A stretch of DNA of 64,000 bases from Chitinophaga sp. SYP-B3965 (GTDB lineage Bacteria; Bacteroidota; Bacteroidia; Chitinophagales; Chitinophagaceae): NCBI RefSeq assembly GCF_009647655.1, contig NZ_WJFD01000001.1, positions 1,364,001 through 1,428,000 on the forward strand, written 5' to 3'. The notes below the pieces were generated by a model. It saw only the letters and a program-made list of their open reading frames with translations, was not told the DNA's origin and did no database searches. This document shows positions 8,885 to 61,694 of this stretch, one piece after another. The first letter of the stretch is position 1; every line of letters starts with the position of its first letter. The position numbers and the translations under genes are program-made.

Positions 8885-9961
8885 CTACATCCTCCCCAAT
8901 AACCTTGCTCCTACACGGTTATCTTCGGAAACATTAGAAAGTACCACTACAGCTACACCCGTTTCTTCATCTACTCCAATAAATGAATGATATCCACCGG
9001 TTTGGCCATTGTGTACTACCCAGTGGCGGCCATCTCTGTTGGCTAAATGCCAGCCCAGGCCTACGCTGCTTTCTCCGGAAAAAGTTTGTATATGGGTTAG
9101 GGCTATCGCTTTTTCCAGCGTGGTGGGTTGTTTGCTCATGTTAGCCCTCGCATAAATGAGCATATCGTGCATCGTGGAACGGATACCTCCGGCACCTGCG
9201 ATCTCCTGGAAGTCCCAGGGGCCCTGTGGGTCCAGTTCTTTTGTGTATCCTTGTGCAAAACGACTTTGCATAGACTCCGTGAGCTTGATCTTTGTGTCCT
9301 TCATTTGCAGTGGTAGCGTAATTTCTCTTTCCAGCAAAGTGGCATAATTCGTATTGGCATTACGTGCTAATAATGCTCCCAGCAGGCCTGCAGCTACGTT
9401 GGAATATTCGTATTTATCTCCCACCCTTCTCTGCGGTTTAAAATTCTTCACGAAGCGGAAGAGCTTTTCATTGGAATATTGGGCATAGGGATTTTTCATA
9501 TCCAGAGCGCCCTGGAACATATTGGGCGCTAAACGCGGGAAGCCGGAGGAGTGATTACTGAGGGATACCATCGTTACCGGCGTGCCATCAAAAACAGGGG
9601 TAGGAACTGAATCCGGCAGGAATTTTCCAATGGGATCATCCAGCTTTACTTTACCACGGTTCACTTGCAGAGCCAATAGCGTACCGGTGAATGTTTTAGA
9701 GATAGAACCTATTTCAAATACGGTATTTTCATCGGGCAATTTGCCATTACCGCGAACGGTTTCGCCATAATTATAAATGGAAATATTCCCGTTCCTTATT
9801 ATTCCTACAACGAGTCCTACACATTGATCCATGGCAAAGCTGGAACGGACAAGGGAATCCACCATCATATCCCGCGGTGTTCTTAGCGGATTATCAGTGG
9901 CTTGTGCAAAGCTGAGTATAGTGTAAAGGGATGCAAACCCTGTAAGGAGCATTTTTTTCAT
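8885..9961 (-). CDS. Exported serine hydrolase, beta-lactamase/class C-like, 358 aa
   Basis: This belongs to the serine beta-lactamase-like superfamily (class C, DD-peptidase and esterase members). A signal peptide (1-21) predicts export. The nucleophile motif SxxK is S86-I-S-K89, the second motif YSN is near residue 186, and the third motif appears as HNGQTGG near 318, where KTG or HTG is usual. The length fits the family. The neighbour 3 nt downstream is a small DMT-type membrane protein, probably co-transcribed. Whether it hydrolyses a beta-lactam, a peptide or an ester cannot be decided from sequence; the surrounding genes give no resistance context. Confidence 0.88.
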   Translation of the reverse strand: MKKMLLTGFASLYTILSFAQATDNPLRTPRDMMVDSLVRSSFAMDQCVGLVVGIIRNGNISIYNYGETVRGNGKLPDENTVFEIGSISKTFTGTLLALQVNRGKVKLDDPIGKFLPDSVPTPVFDGTPVTMVSLSNHSSGFPRLAPNMFQGALDMKNPYAQYSNEKLFRFVKNFKPQRRVGDKYEYSNVAAGLLGALLARNANTNYATLLEREITLPLQMKDTKIKLTESMQSRFAQGYTKELDPQGPWDFQEIAGAGGIRSTMHDMLIYARANMSKQPTTLEKAIALTHIQTFSGESSVGLGWHLANRDGRHWVVHNGQTGGYHSFIGVDEETGVAVVVLSNVSEDNRVGARLLGRM

Positions 9962-47998: not shown

Positions 47999-48005
47999 CA
48001 GCCGT

Positions 48006-54775: not shown

Positions 54776-57700
54776 TTGACGACTATATCTTTCCCGCAGT
54801 TCCTCGAAACTGCCTTTCAGAACGGAGCCTACACAACAGATGACGTAATTGCAGCTGTATTACCGCTTTTCAAAACCGTTTTAGCCCTGCACGACAGTGG
54901 CCTTGTTGCTCCCTTCGATCAGGAGGATGTGCTGCAGGTACAAAACCGTGCGGTTACATTGGATACGGTATTAGCCCATCCACCGCTGGATGCGTTTGAA
55001 AAAGTTGCAGCGCTCTACAACGGACACAATCCTCATTTTCAGATCGTTGATAAAGTGAAACTGCTGGTGGACCAGGCCGAAGCCATCAACCTGCAGGTGC
55101 ATAAAGATGTAACGTTACCATTGCAACACGGCGCTTACATTCCCGGATACCGCAGTTATGAAATGCTGCTGGGGCACCATGATGCGCAAACGGATATCTT
55201 CTGCCTCGGATTGGTACTGGCCAGCATTTCCTTAGGGATCGATCTCCATGCTCCGGATGGTTTGGATAAACTGGTAGTACAACGCACGCATCCGCTGGCA
55301 TATCGCCCCATTCATCCTGCACTGGGTACCATCATTACGGAGATGACGGAATTAAACCGTACACAAAGAGCACAAGACCTTAACGAACTGATCCACCGCC
55401 TGGAGCATTACCGGGATTTTGACAGTGAGAAACAACTGGACCTTGGCCAGATGGCAGGATGGAAATACCAGGAACGTAAAGAAAGACAAGGATTCATCCT
55501 CAATAAATTACGGAACCGTTTATTTGATGTAAGCAGACGGAACCGCCTGCTGTATTACAAACCTAACGCCCGCTTTGCCAACCTTACCCTGAGCAGTGTG
55601 CCCATGGTATTGCATCACCAAAGCATCCGCCCTGAATTATTATTCACCTGGAATGAAGAGATCGCAGAAAAAGTGATAGGCATGAAAGACCTGTCCCTCA
55701 ACAAATACCTGCGTTTTGAAGATCATCCCTACCTGCCCGGCGTACTGAATAAAGTACGGCTGGAAGCACAAAAGGATATACAGGAATATGGTTTCAGCCA
55801 GTTGAAACTGGTGGTGGCCTTTATGAAATGGCATAACCTGCGCGAAGATCCGGAAGAAAGTATGATGAGCCCGCTCCTGCTGATCCCGGTGGACCTGAAG
55901 AAAAAGAAACAGGTGGGCGAAGATCAGTATGTGCTTACCATCACAGATAACCATGCAGAAGTAAATCCCGTACTGGCCAATCAGCTGCGCGACCTCTACG
56001 GCATTGAATTGCCGGATATGATAGACCTCGAAGAGATGAGCATGGAGCAATTCTATCAAACCCTGCAAACCCAGATAGAAGGCACTAACAAGGGCATTGT
56101 ACTGCAATACATGCAAAAGCCCCGGATCAAACTCATCTATAAAGAAGCACGGGATACCGTTAATCAATACCAGAAGAAATTAGACAAAGCACCGTTACCG
56201 GATCATGAGTTATATGAAGTAATGGAAGGAACGGATAATCCCTACCGCTGGGACTTCGAGACCTGTCATGTTGTGCTGGGCAATTTCAATTACAAGAAAA
56301 TGAGCCTGGTGCAGGATTATAATTCTGTGATAGATCAGCCGCAGCAGCATGAAGTATTTGAGCAGCTTTTCAGCGCACATCCTAAACCGGTACGCGAAGA
56401 AGAAGAATTAGCTTCCACCTTGCCGGAGGAAGAGTGGTTCCATGTGATCCAGGCAGACCCTACACAAACCAAAGCTATCCTGCAAGCACGGAAGGGAGAA
56501 AGTTATATTATACAAGGCCCTCCGGGTACCGGGAAAAGCCAGACCATCACCAACCTGATCGCGGACTTTGTGGCCCGCGGCAAACAGGTATTGTTTGTTT
56601 GTGAAAAGAGAGCCGCGCTGGATGTGGTATTCCATCGTTTAAAACAACAGGGCTTAGATGAACTCTGCTGTTACATTCATGATAGCCAGGCAGATAAACG
56701 TGCTTTCATCAAAGACCTTAAACTTACTTACGAAGCTTTCCTGCGGCCGGGTGAAAACCTGCATAACATCACTGTTCGGCGGAATGCGCTGCTGCATAAC
56801 TTATCTCAGCAATTACAACTGCTGCAACAGTTCCATGATACGCATGCACATGAAACAGAGAATGCCGGTATAGCTGTACGCACACTGATAGAGCGGGTAC
56901 TGGTACTGAAGCCTTTATTGCAAACAGTGGAACCTGCCGTAGAAGAAACTGTACCACATTATAAACAATGGCTGCAATTCGGGAGCATTGTGGAACTGTT
57001 AGGAGAAGCGCTGGAAGAAAGTGGTGCAGAACCAGTGTTTGCCACACATCCACTCAGTAAAGTGAATGAACAGGTATTTGCCGCAGAGCAACCCCAGCAG
57101 TTATTGAACAGCCTGATCGCCAACAGCAGGGCCTTGTTAGACCTTGTGACCCGCGTTATTTCCTCTAACCAGATCACCGCAAAAACAATTGAGGAGTTAC
57201 GTCAATTAGTATTGAATGCCACGCTGTTACTTCCACTGGCTGAAAGTGGTAATTTATTACTGATAGATGCAAAGAACCCGGAAGCACAGGCATTTGAGCA
57301 GGCCATAAAAGAAATTAAAACATTACAGATAGCCGCAGAACAGGCCACACAGCAGAATATTCACTGGCAGCGTAAGTTCAGCGAACAGGATACTTTGCAG
57401 GCCATCACCATTGCAGAGAAACACCAGGATTCTTTCTGGCGTTTCCTTTCCGGCAGCTGGCGTCGCCTGAAGAAACAAATGCAGGAGAGCTATGATCTCT
57501 CTCAACATGCCGTAGTACCAGCTTTCAGCAGTATCCTGTTATTATTGAAAGCGGAATATGATGCCCTGAACCTGCTGGAACAAACCCGTTCTGCTGTGCG
57601 CCAGCAATATCGCATTGATAACATCGACCTTACCTGGCTGACGATAGAAAGATTACGCGTGCGCCTGAGCGATGCCCCTATGCAATACCTGCTGCAACAT

Positions 57701-59986
57701 CCACAGGCACAACAGGTAGTAGAACAACTGGCCCGCCTGCATGAAACCATCCATAAACTGGATATCAGTTTATCTAAAACATTACAGGACCCACCGGTAC
57801 AGGATTTCATAGAACTTACAGACCTGCTGGATTCCATCAACCTGAATGCTCCTGCCCTGGAAGAGTTATTACCCGTATTAAGCAATTACCTGGAAATGCC
57901 CGGCGGCCTGAAGCTCGCGTTACGCACGCTGCCCTGGACGCCGGTAGAAATGGAAGCCGGCATGGCACACAAAACACTTAAACAGATCTATCAGCAGAAT
58001 AAACCCTTTGCCAATACCGGCAGCCAGGTGATAGAAAAAGCAGTGGAACAGGTGAAACATTGCTACGGGGAATTGTTACAGGTGAATGCCTCTTTCATCC
58101 GCGCCAATATCCAACAGCGTTTCGGGCAACATGTGCAATTAAGCAACAAAGCACTTTCGCAGGTACCAGAAGAAGAACAGCCCTTTGCAAAGAATTACGG
58201 TGAAGGCAGAAAGATCCTGGAGAATGAATTTGCCAAAAGCATGCGGTACAAAAGTATCCGCGAACTTACTTCCCGCAGCAGCGGCCTTGTGTTGAAAGAC
58301 CTGAAACCCGTGTGGCTCATGAGCCCGCTCAGTGTGAGTGATTCACTTGCGTTGGATCAGCCTTTCTTTGATGCCGTGATCTTTGATGAGGCCAGCCAGA
58401 TCACACTGGAAGAAGGTGTGCCTTCTCTCTATCGTGCCCCGCAAACCATTATCGTGGGAGACGACCGGCAAATGCCGCCTACTGATTTCTTCACCGCCAA
58501 AGCAGGTGATCCGGATGACCTGGAAAGAAATGAGGAAGAAGATGAGATCCTTAGTGCAGATGCGGACAGTCTGCTTACACAGGGCGCCCGTAAGATGAAC
58601 AGCGTGATGCTGGGATGGCATTACCGCAGTCATTTCGAAACCCTGATCAGTTACAGCAATCATGCGTTCTATGGCGCCAGCCTGCTCACCATCCCGGACC
58701 GCAGTATTCACAGTGGCGTTAAACCGCCTATCAGCATACAACAACCTTCTGATGCGCTCTTCTCCGTATCTGCATTATTTGACCGCAGTATCAGTTTCCA
58801 TCACTTACCTAACGGCACTTATGCGAAAAGAGGGAATACATCAGAGGCTACGTATATCGCACACCTGGTGCGGGAGTTATTAATGAAGCGGACGCCGGAG
58901 AGCATTGGTATTGTGGCTTTCAGCCAGGAACAGCAGCATGCTATTGAAGCTGCGCTGGAAGCATTGGCAGTCAACGATAAAAAGTTTGATGAACTGCTGG
59001 ACGATGCTACTGAGCGAATGGATGATGGTCAGTTCACCGGGTTGTTTGTAAAGAACCTGGAGAATGTGCAGGGAGATGAAAGGGATATCATTATCATGAG
59101 TGTTTGTTATGCACCGGATGCAAGGGGTAAGATGTCCATGCACTTTGGGCCGATCAATAAACGGGGTGGTGAGAAGCGGCTGAATGTTATTTTCAGTCGT
59201 GCCAAGCAGCACATGGCTATTGTGAGCAGTATCCGTCATCACCAGATCACCAATGTATATAATGCAGGGGCCAATTACCTGCGCCGCTTCCTGCAATATG
59301 CAGAAACGGTGAGCACAGGTAATATGACCATGGCGCGCAGTATCCTGGATGGCTTATCTACAGACAAACAAACACGCCGTTACCGTTCAGGAGATACCAT
59401 CATCTTGCAGGAGATCCGGGAACAGCTGATACAACAGGGGTTTTCAGTGTCTGAGCAAGTGGGGCAATCCGGGTTTAAATGTTCGCTGGCCGTGAAAGCG
59501 CAGGAAAGTGATAATGCTTATGCGCTGAGTATTATCGTGGATGATGATAATTACTATCAGCATAGTGATGTATTAGAGCAATATTATCAGCGGCCAGCTA
59601 TCCTCGAAAGCTTTGGCTGGCGTACGATCACAGTATATGCCAAAGACTGGCTGCTACAACCGCAGCGGGTGATGGAGGAAATATTAAAGCGGCTGGATCG
59701 TTTACCGGAAGCAACGCCTCTCTCCTCTTTGATCCCGCAGGAAGCAACACCGGCGGGGACTACGCGGTTAATTTCCGGCGAAGGAAAAACAGCGAAGTTC
59801 TGGGAAATAGCAGTGAGTGGCGGGAAGTTGTTCATCCGGCAGGGACGTGTGGGTACAAAGGGACAGATACAAGTGAAGACCTGTGCGGATGCTGCTGATG
59901 CAGAGAAGGAAAAGGAGTTGATGGTGCAGGAGAAAGTGGCTGCTGGCTGGAAAGATGGTGCAGGTAATTCGAATGAGTTGTTTTAA
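54776..59986 (+). CDS. Giant SF1 helicase: kinase-like C-lobe, DUF4011, helicase, degenerate nuclease fold, WGR; 1736 aa
   Basis: Translation starts at a TTG (54776); an in-frame stop 12 nt upstream excludes a longer start. Residues 1-225 resemble a protein-kinase C-lobe (LALHDSGLVAPFDQEDVL in the catalytic-loop position, YRSYEMLLG near 126, TDIFCLGLVLASISLG near 140) but lack HRD and DFG and the N-lobe. DUF4011-like sequence follows (about 245-470, LRNRLFDVSRRNRLLYYKP). The helicase has Walker A GPPGTGKSQT at 581, then a 600-residue helical insertion, Walker B DAVIFDEASQ at 1199, IIVGDDRQMPP, motif V ENVQGDERDIII and motif VI RLNVIFSRAKQ, all intact. Residues about 1535-1640 resemble a Vsr/MTES-type nuclease fold without its acids, and 1660-1730 a WGR domain. 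Large DUF4011 helicases have been proposed to act in phage defence. Confidence 0.87.
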   Translation: MTTISFPQFLETAFQNGAYTTDDVIAAVLPLFKTVLALHDSGLVAPFDQEDVLQVQNRAVTLDTVLAHPPLDAFEKVAALYNGHNPHFQIVDKVKLLVDQAEAINLQVHKDVTLPLQHGAYIPGYRSYEMLLGHHDAQTDIFCLGLVLASISLGIDLHAPDGLDKLVVQRTHPLAYRPIHPALGTIITEMTELNRTQRAQDLNELIHRLEHYRDFDSEKQLDLGQMAGWKYQERKERQGFILNKLRNRLFDVSRRNRLLYYKPNARFANLTLSSVPMVLHHQSIRPELLFTWNEEIAEKVIGMKDLSLNKYLRFEDHPYLPGVLNKVRLEAQKDIQEYGFSQLKLVVAFMKWHNLREDPEESMMSPLLLIPVDLKKKKQVGEDQYVLTITDNHAEVNPVLANQLRDLYGIELPDMIDLEEMSMEQFYQTLQTQIEGTNKGIVLQYMQKPRIKLIYKEARDTVNQYQKKLDKAPLPDHELYEVMEGTDNPYRWDFETCHVVLGNFNYKKMSLVQDYNSVIDQPQQHEVFEQLFSAHPKPVREEEELASTLPEEEWFHVIQADPTQTKAILQARKGESYIIQGPPGTGKSQTITNLIADFVARGKQVLFVCEKRAALDVVFHRLKQQGLDELCCYIHDSQADKRAFIKDLKLTYEAFLRPGENLHNITVRRNALLHNLSQQLQLLQQFHDTHAHETENAGIAVRTLIERVLVLKPLLQTVEPAVEETVPHYKQWLQFGSIVELLGEALEESGAEPVFATHPLSKVNEQVFAAEQPQQLLNSLIANSRALLDLVTRVISSNQITAKTIEELRQLVLNATLLLPLAESGNLLLIDAKNPEAQAFEQAIKEIKTLQIAAEQATQQNIHWQRKFSEQDTLQAITIAEKHQDSFWRFLSGSWRRLKKQMQESYDLSQHAVVPAFSSILLLLKAEYDALNLLEQTRSAVRQQYRIDNIDLTWLTIERLRVRLSDAPMQYLLQHPQAQQVVEQLARLHETIHKLDISLSKTLQDPPVQDFIELTDLLDSINLNAPALEELLPVLSNYLEMPGGLKLALRTLPWTPVEMEAGMAHKTLKQIYQQNKPFANTGSQVIEKAVEQVKHCYGELLQVNASFIRANIQQRFGQHVQLSNKALSQVPEEEQPFAKNYGEGRKILENEFAKSMRYKSIRELTSRSSGLVLKDLKPVWLMSPLSVSDSLALDQPFFDAVIFDEASQITLEEGVPSLYRAPQTIIVGDDRQMPPTDFFTAKAGDPDDLERNEEEDEILSADADSLLTQGARKMNSVMLGWHYRSHFETLISYSNHAFYGASLLTIPDRSIHSGVKPPISIQQPSDALFSVSALFDRSISFHHLPNGTYAKRGNTSEATYIAHLVRELLMKRTPESIGIVAFSQEQQHAIEAALEALAVNDKKFDELLDDATERMDDGQFTGLFVKNLENVQGDERDIIIMSVCYAPDARGKMSMHFGPINKRGGEKRLNVIFSRAKQHMAIVSSIRHHQITNVYNAGANYLRRFLQYAETVSTGNMTMARSILDGLSTDKQTRRYRSGDTIILQEIREQLIQQGFSVSEQVGQSGFKCSLAVKAQESDNAYALSIIVDDDNYYQHSDVLEQYYQRPAILESFGWRTITVYAKDWLLQPQRVMEEILKRLDRLPEATPLSSLIPQEATPAGTTRLISGEGKTAKFWEIAVSGGKLFIRQGRVGTKGQIQVKTCADAADAEKEKELMVQEKVAAGWKDGAGNSNELF

Positions 59987-60062
59987 ATAACAGCCACGAA
60001 CCATTCTGATAACGATCTGAATAAATTTCTCGTTGAAAACCGAATGGCTATTGCGAATTCAT

Positions 60063-60300
60063 CTAAATAAAAAAACGAACTGAATAAGCTCTTGTGGATC
60101 ATGCTATCTAAACAAAAAAGCGAACTGAATAAGTTCTTGTGGATCATGCTATCTAAACAAAAAAACGAACTGAATAAGCTCTTGTGGATCATGCTATCTA
60201 AATAAAAAAACGAACTGAATGAGCTCTTGTGAATCATTCCATCTAAATAAAAAACGAACTGAATGAGCTCTTGCAAATCATTCCATCTAAACAAAAAAAC
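60063..60300. repeat. Five and a bit 45-bp tandem repeats
   Basis: The 346-bp gap after the helicase holds tandem units starting CTAAAYAAAAAARCGAACTG at 60063, 60108, 60153, 60198 and 60243 (45 bp apart), then a truncated start at 60287. Each unit continues AATAAGCTCTTGTGGATCAT and GCTAT or a variant. The first three are nearly identical and the last two share AATGAGCTC and ATTCCAT, so two subtypes exist. The 45-bp period is a multiple of three, which keeps a frame open on the minus strand, but I judge that frame to be spurious. Nothing else is visible in the gap. Confidence 0.92.
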
Positions 60301-60332
60301 CTCCCGTTTTTGCTCAAAGAGCAAAAACGCAT

Positions 60333-61694
60333 TTACCCTACCAGCGCCTTACGCGCATTGGCATGCTGGCGCAGCAAATTGAGGATGAATTCATTTTCAG
60401 GATACTGCGTCAGCCAGTCTTTCAGCATATTATTATCTGTAACAGCCACATCCCGTGGAACATACCCCATGCCATAGAACTTCCCTTTCTCCATGAGGAT
60501 ACAACTGCGTTCCGTAGCTTCCCGGCCACTATCCACAATCACAAAAGAAGGTTGTTCTGACTTCAGGTGTTCAATAGCAGCTGCTACACGTTGGTTATAT
60601 TTAACCGGTTTTTCTTTCTTATCACAGGCGCCCTTACAGGATTTATCCGCTATCCCAATGCAGGCATCATTATCCGTTTGCAGGAAACAAAGTTTCGGGC
60701 ATAGTTTGAATTCGCGCACCAATTCCCGCATGCGCTGATGCCCGTCTATGAGCAGGTTGAAAGTATATACAGGAGAAGAATATTTCCTTCGTTTTTCAAT
60801 AGCCAGCCGCAGGTAACCACCCTGGTCTTCAAAAACATAAAACCCAAACTTAGATTCAATACGTTTCTGTGCATTATTATAAGGCGGCCATAAACGACGG
60901 ATCTCAATAGATTCCAGGATAAAAGCCATCAGCTCCGTACCCGTTTTTTCATAAGAGATCCCATATATGTTCCGGATAAATTCCTGTTTCTTCCGGCCGG
61001 AACTATTGCCGGTAAAGTGACTGGTCACCCGTTTCTTAATATTCCTGGCCTTCCCCACATACACCACTTTCCCTTTTTCATTATGAAAGTAATACACCCC
61101 GGGACAAATGGGCAGATCCGCCACCTGTTCCTGCGGCAAATGCAGCGGCAGCCACTGTTCTTTAGAACGGACATTCAATGCCACCGCAATAGCACCATCC
61201 ACATCCGCCGCCATGATCCTTTCAAACAGCTGTACGGTAGCCAGGGCATCTCCTGTAGCGCGATGGCGCTGCTGGATATTGATATTCAGCTGCCGGCATA
61301 AATTCCCCAGGCTGTAAGAAGGAAAACCCGGAAAAACCTTACGGCTGAGGCGTACGGTACAGAGTTTCCTGCTTTGGAGTTTATACCCCGCCGCATCCAG
61401 CTGGAATTTGAGGAAAGAGTAATCGAAATTAACGTTGTGGGCGATGAAGATCTGGCCCTGCAGTAAGGTGAAAACCTGCTGCGCCACCTCTTCAAATGAG
61501 GGGGCATCAGCCACCATTTCGTTTGTGATACCCGTAAGGGCCTGGATATACCTCGGAATAGGCATGCCTGGATTGACCAGCGTTTCGTACTGCTGTACGA
61601 TCTGCTTCCCATCATGAATAAAAATGGCTATTTCCGTGATACTCCCGGCACTGGCGTGCCCTCCCGTGGTTTCGATGTCTACGATGGCGTACAT
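60333..61694 (-). CDS. DEDDh exonuclease fused to GIY-YIG (UvrC-N-like) nuclease, 453 aa
   Basis: The N-terminal domain (1-165) is a DnaQ/epsilon-type 3'-5' exonuclease: VDIETTG (Asp6 and Glu8), FIAHNVNFDYSFLK near 84 and RHRATGDALAT near 145 give the DEDDh residues. The middle (about 195-280) is a GIY-YIG domain (CPGVYYFHNEKGKVVYVGKA, then NIKKRVTSHF). A Cys-containing segment (CPKLCFLQTDNDACIGIADK) follows around 335-350. This fusion is known in actinobacteria and Bacteroidota and resembles a Cho/UvrC-like incision nuclease joined to a proofreading exonuclease, pointing to DNA repair. It is monocistronic. Confidence 0.93.
   Translation of the reverse strand: MYAIVDIETTGGHASAGSITEIAIFIHDGKQIVQQYETLVNPGMPIPRYIQALTGITNEMVADAPSFEEVAQQVFTLLQGQIFIAHNVNFDYSFLKFQLDAAGYKLQSRKLCTVRLSRKVFPGFPSYSLGNLCRQLNINIQQRHRATGDALATVQLFERIMAADVDGAIAVALNVRSKEQWLPLHLPQEQVADLPICPGVYYFHNEKGKVVYVGKARNIKKRVTSHFTGNSSGRKKQEFIRNIYGISYEKTGTELMAFILESIEIRRLWPPYNNAQKRIESKFGFYVFEDQGGYLRLAIEKRRKYSSPVYTFNLLIDGHQRMRELVREFKLCPKLCFLQTDNDACIGIADKSCKGACDKKEKPVKYNQRVAAAIEHLKSEQPSFVIVDSGREATERSCILMEKGKFYGMGYVPRDVAVTDNNMLKDWLTQYPENEFILNLLRQHANARKALVG

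Follow-up and report, generated by a model that had tools for sequence, protein, structure and literature searches.

Closest described systems

The bacterial proteins most similar to the helicase described here are ProA and the candidate system PDC-S37, with which it has in common a DUF4011 domain, a superfamily 1 (SF1) motor with a stretch of about 600 residues between motifs I and II and a nuclease fold of the MTES type towards the C-terminus, and Hhe, with which it has in common the DUF4011 helicase core. In eukaryotes, FANCJ and SPRTN pair a helicase with a soluble HExxH metalloprotease in protein-DNA crosslink repair by a proposed unfold-then-cut logic (PMC12279946). We analyzed a 64,000-nucleotide stretch of the 7.14 Mb genome of Chitinophaga sp. 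SYP-B3965 (contig C1, positions 1364001-1428000; hereafter the window) and in it the following gene for a DUF4011 helicase.

54776..59986, + strand: whole gene (TTG start, 1736 amino acids, stop codon within the span)

The main clue is invisible from the letters of the window: most relatives have a gene for an M48-type metalloprotease ahead of the helicase gene, and it is missing here. A match to the protein with 74% identity comes from a genome of the same genus. A Pfam scan returned DUF4011, AAA_11, AAA_12, MTES_1575 and WGR above cut-off, with no kinase match and no PARP catalytic domain, and the alignments described below support an SF1 motor bearing a degenerate kinase lobe, a catalytically substituted nuclease fold and a WGR tail. 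No paper on an architecture joining a kinase lobe, a DUF4011 helicase and a WGR domain was found in a literature search whose coverage excluded most subscription journals and preprints. A first scan of genome contigs using the single protein as a query yielded 26 stretches, none of which was confirmed.

By curated cut-offs the protein is not ProA (NF058533, 696 bits against a cut-off of 1500) or Hhe (NF042953, 489 bits against 2000). It matched PDC-S37 (PADLOC profile PDLC05009, for which PADLOC supplies no cut-off) with 717 bits over positions 208-1350 of 1550, whereas three ProA-type proteins matched the same profile with 1146-2083 bits over nearly its whole length. Three proteins from the same bacterial family (loci L066, L070 and L063) score 1596-2111 as ProA and, unlike this helicase, have a DUF3320 domain and keep the nuclease aspartate; two of them (L066 and L070) carry a long N-terminal extension, with a weak transglutaminase-like match in L066 (E-value 0.061). 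Beside 10 paralogues (16-20 kb loci) we found neither a kinase lobe nor an M48-type gene at an E-value of 10 or below.

An M48-type metalloprotease gene precedes most relatives

The M48-type gene precedes the helicase gene in most relatives outside Chitinophaga. We found the helicase in 30 of 394 genomes of the family and in 5 of the 10 genomes sampled from its own genus. The M48-type gene was present in 24 of the 394, all 24 full-length peptidases adjoin a helicase, and the pair thus occurs in 24 of the 30 helicase-bearing genomes. The M48-type partner gene is absent from the window and from the rest of this genome, and a search for peptidase remnants between positions 48001 and 61000 of the window gave two matches (E-values 0.04-0.05), neither of them at the start of the locus. 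The peptidase appears nearer to Ste24, BepA and HtpX than to SPRTN. Structure predictions were made for two targets, the kinase lobe and the peptidase; no clear structural match was found for the C-terminal ~140 residues of the latter, and a TerB-like identity of this part was a guess that found no support. At one locus (L122:4812-6910, from the same genome as L056) a reading frame of 596 amino acids lies between peptidase and helicase.

We used a 52-member alignment, from which eight of 52 named loci (<1600 amino acids) were omitted and into which 7 unnamed relatives were put, and a motor tree of 52 rows computed by a quick method (36 peptidase-bearing, 13 without, 3 unlabelled). The peptidase label switches three times on this tree, at the Chitinophaga clade (100 in the Shimodaira-Hasegawa-like approximate likelihood ratio test), at L036 and at L124. 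L060 sits on a long branch, and long branches meet at L036 and L128. By itself the tree does not tell gain from loss; since some branches close to the root are peptidase-bearing too, three losses are the simpler account.

Two elements of the helicase differ between peptidase-bearing and peptidase-less forms:

56165..56239, + strand: site (residues 464-488) at which peptidase-bearing relatives carry an extra segment of ~50 amino acids with PLGLEIFR or a near variant; the segment is absent here
54959..55129, + strand: loop of the kinase lobe (residues 62-118), 57 amino acids here and 60-64 in relatives with an intact peptidase

The extra segment, which follows residue ~470 and has a conserved core of roughly YxY...YKPLGLExFR, was present in 41 of 41 peptidase-bearing and 0 of 15 peptidase-less helicases, scored with a PLGLEIFR pattern that was derived from these same sequences. 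For this count duplicates were collapsed, five too-short rows and L113 were set apart, L054 was entered as peptidase-bearing (its peptidase is on another contig), and the 15 include L061, which also has no kinase lobe. The loop measures 60-64 amino acids with an intact peptidase and 55-57 in Chitinophaga, 25 in L036, 39 in L124 and 24 in L113; L061 and two outgroup proteins were not counted. The L113 helicase, whose peptidase is broken, retains the PLGLEIFR motif, and at L124 a deletion has left a footprint, the first codons of a peptidase-like gene continuing straight into the helicase. The L113 peptidase gene itself (L113:8227-8859) has lost ~95 residues including HExxH, and what remains of it is an open frame, a case of protease loss under way.

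The linker segment and the loop thus track the fate of the protease, as expected of a contact or of an enzyme-substrate relation, and from these sequence patterns protease and helicase probably interact. The co-loss comprises few events (three or four), and the peptidase-less rows are mostly Chitinophaga. An M48-type gene that lies upstream in most relatives and was apparently lost in the Chitinophaga lineage suggests a helicase-protease machine that has not been described before. That the 1736-residue protein is the motor of such a two-part machine, kept here without its protease, is a reading to which we give somewhat less than an even chance.

The same elements allow for a regulatory pair, in which the M48-type enzyme would cleave the helicase at the linker segment and free the motor from the kinase lobe and DUF4011 as an on/off switch; a cut site is useless without the protease and would hence decay. 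The variable linker that joins DUF4011 to motif I does hold the segment, which is missing wherever the protease is absent. Its conserved core, however, seems longer than cut sites usually are, and the loop of the kinase lobe is altered as well, and we regard this alternative as improbable.

Two inactive domains and a WGR tail

54782..55417, + strand: protein-kinase C-lobe without an N-lobe (residues 3-214); the HRD position reads APF, and Glu129, Asp140, Gly145 and Arg198 are retained
59408..59695, + strand: MTES_1575/Vsr-like nuclease fold (residues 1545-1640); Ser1570 occupies the catalytic Asp position and Ile1587 the Glu position
59777..59956, + strand: WGR domain (residues 1668-1727; Pfam, 46.3 bits against a cut-off of 22)

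The N-terminal lobe shares with Ser/Thr kinases (PknB, IRAK4) and with pseudokinases the C-lobe fold, beginning near the hinge and running through the final helices, together with its structural residues; those retained we take to be the APE glutamate, the alphaF aspartate and the late arginine. It differs from them in having no N-lobe with glycine loop and lysine, its alignment starting at kinase column 84 of 250, and no HRD aspartate, the position being Phe in 51 and Leu in 1 of the 52 members. This confirms the kinase-like C-lobe without N-lobe or HRD that had been read from the sequence in a preliminary description, and because both the N-lobe and the HRD aspartate are absent, no ATP site is expected in the lobe. 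An N-lobe missed upstream was ruled out, as the reading frame is open for just 3 codons before the start. The sole aligned relative with an upstream extension (L052, ~150 amino acids) was also considered; its extension overlaps the L052 peptidase gene.

The same description had proposed a Vsr/MTES-like fold with replaced acids and a WGR-type tail, and both hold. The MTES_1575 profile scored 57.6 bits against a cut-off of 38.2, and both catalytic positions are substituted in all 52 members (Asp by Ser in 47, Ala in 2, Thr in 2 and His in 1; Glu by Leu, Ile or Gln). The aspartate is retained in 10 of 10 paralogues, 5 of which have also lost the glutamate; in this alignment L113 is misaligned, its contig ending early. 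The WGR domain was recognizable in 48 of 52 members by a simple pattern. Four loci (L117, L121, L128 and L060) keep the peptidase and show no WGR-like tail by this pattern, which may have missed that of L117. WGR domains of PARPs bind DNA ends. A profile of the C-terminal part matched the Bacteroides protein 2ra8 (E-value 3.4e-13) and PARP3 (E-value 9.3e-4) across the domain; in contrast to these, the WGR is here joined to a helicase, and the Pfam matches include no PARP catalytic domain.

We estimated the ratio of nonsynonymous to synonymous substitution rates (dN/dS) in eight Chitinophaga pairs. The second part of the motor gave 0.01-0.06 (measurable in 8 of 8 pairs), the kinase lobe 0.045-0.16 (6 of 8), the nuclease fold 0.03-0.13 (4 of 8) and the WGR domain 0.04-0.14 (4 of 8), figures that are rough since synonymous change (dS) is near saturation in most pairs. 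The closest pair (L084/L085, dS 0.25-0.55 by region) gave 0.01-0.13. The inactive kinase lobe and the inactive nuclease fold therefore look to be kept under constraint, judging from these ratios, which makes a sensor, scaffold or clamp role reasonable for both; the preliminary description had proposed that they may gate the helicase.

The constraint bears on a further alternative, a helicase that acts alone and whose extra domains are inert fossils, with the operon of its relatives due to chance or a loose association. Chitinophaga does retain the gene without the protease, and at two Chitinophaga loci its frame is broken, as this view would have it; the apparent constraint on both dead domains and the 24 of 24 full-length peptidases that sit with the helicase in the family sample make it very improbable. 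With its frame broken at L125 and L129 (near 9001-9730), the protease-less gene may be undergoing decay in some Chitinophaga.

Helicase motor and proposed mechanism

55517..55987, + strand: DUF4011 domain (residues 248-404; 52.9 bits against a cut-off of 22.2)
56516..56539, + strand: SF1 motif I, GPPGTGKS (residues 581-588), identical in 52/52 members
56675..58315, + strand: long region separating motif I from motif II (residues 634-1180); its counterparts in two ProA-type paralogues are about as long
58385..58396, + strand: SF1 motif II, DEAS (residues 1204-1207), identical in 52/52 members
58592..59230, + strand: second RecA domain (AAA_12, residues 1273-1485), including motifs V and VI, from Pfam and alignment

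The assignment to DUF4011 SF1 helicases is based on PF13195 together with AAA_11 and AAA_12 above cut-off and on motifs I, II, III, V and VI, which had been called intact from the sequence and are so: besides motifs I and II, HYRS is invariant in all 52 members, and motifs III, V and VI show little variation. The stretch between motifs I and II had been described as a 600-residue helical insertion; given its similar length in the two paralogues, we reject it as a peculiarity of this protein.

The proposed teamwork of a helicase with an HExxH protease resembles that of FANCJ and SPRTN. FANCJ is a superfamily 2, XPD-like helicase, in contrast to the bacterial SF1 motor, and the bacterial protease looks closer to Ste24, BepA and HtpX than to SPRTN.

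In a two-part machine, the motor would load on DNA, and the dead nuclease and the WGR domain, by analogy with the WGR of PARPs, would hold it at an end, nick or junction. Docking of the protease may fall to the loop of the kinase lobe and the linker segment, or the segment may be the substrate of the protease. As it travels on DNA, the motor would run up against a bound or crosslinked protein and unfold it, and the docked M48-type enzyme would cut the unfolded protein, on the FANCJ-SPRTN model (PMC12279946). In Chitinophaga the lone motor would persist for unwinding or for stripping proteins off DNA. Stated in full, bacteria would have a helicase-protease machine of a new class: a kinase C-lobe devoid of an ATP site would dock a cytosolic M48-type protease and the motor would feed the protease DNA-bound proteins, whether crosslinked host proteins or those of phages, with Chitinophaga as a motor-only form; this we put forward tentatively, at clearly less than even probability. 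It is also possible that the helicase works on RNA.

What is new here is the M48-type partner of the helicase gene and its apparent repeated loss together with two helicase elements, a joint loss that points to a testable contact surface in soil bacteria. If the proposal is true, some bacteria own a dedicated helicase-coupled protease for DNA-bound proteins, and protein docking is the sole task for which the kinase lobe was recruited.

Genomic neighborhood and mobility

An anti-phage role had been suggested from the sequence. In such a system, the WGR domain and the dead nuclease would sense invading or damaged phage DNA and the protease would be released or activated to kill or arrest the cell or to cut a phage protein, peptidase-less forms being relics or users of another effector. 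The kinship of the helicase core with ProA, Hhe and PDC-S37 stands in its favor, as does the patchy occurrence across the family and genus. So does mobility: on the motor tree, the Pedobacter and Cesiribacter copies nest inside Chitinophagaceae, from which it follows that the helicase moves between lineages, here between orders, and near the helicase gene lie an integrase gene of phage type in L126 and a transposase gene of the IS200 type in L096.

On the other side, the ProA and Hhe scores fall under the curated cut-offs, and the one peptidase tested had no PADLOC match. Searches of 72,556 records of plasmids and 50,697 of phages returned nothing for the kinase lobe, and in viral contigs, scanned by pattern, the kinase lobe and the peptidase both went unconfirmed. 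The 10 neighbors scored by Pfam, at 5 of the 11 loci of other genera described below, include one UvrD helicase, one DnaQ/GIY-YIG exonuclease and the integrase and transposase just named; PADLOC matched just the UvrD and DnaQ/GIY-YIG proteins, both of wide families, so that no clear defense gene was found among these 10. Neighbors are conserved across nine Niastella and Longitalea loci. DUF4011 alone is no mark of defense, because a DUF4011 gene is reported from every P. aeruginosa isolate as a core flank of a defense hotspot (PMC10250203). The phage-defense reading is weak but a live rival, and we consider it less likely than not. A further caution is that the anti-phage label on DUF4011 helicases covers a heterogeneous group.

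At 11 loci of other genera, the neighbors, read by eye, mostly look like ordinary chromosomal genes. In L126 the integrase gene (L126:4819-6024) lies two genes upstream of the peptidase, and the operon there may travel on an integrative element. Next to the helicase gene in the window lies the following gene:

60333..61694, - strand: DnaQ-type 3'-5' exonuclease with a UvrC/Cho-like part, a possible functional neighbor only

This DnaQ/UvrC-like gene adjoins the helicase in most Chitinophaga loci as well and lies near it, in other orientations, in L118 and L127; we did not use it as a clue because these represent three independent sites at most. The short frame downstream of the helicase gene (59983-60324, - strand) contains a repeated unit around LDSMIHKS and is probably a repeat array, not a gene.
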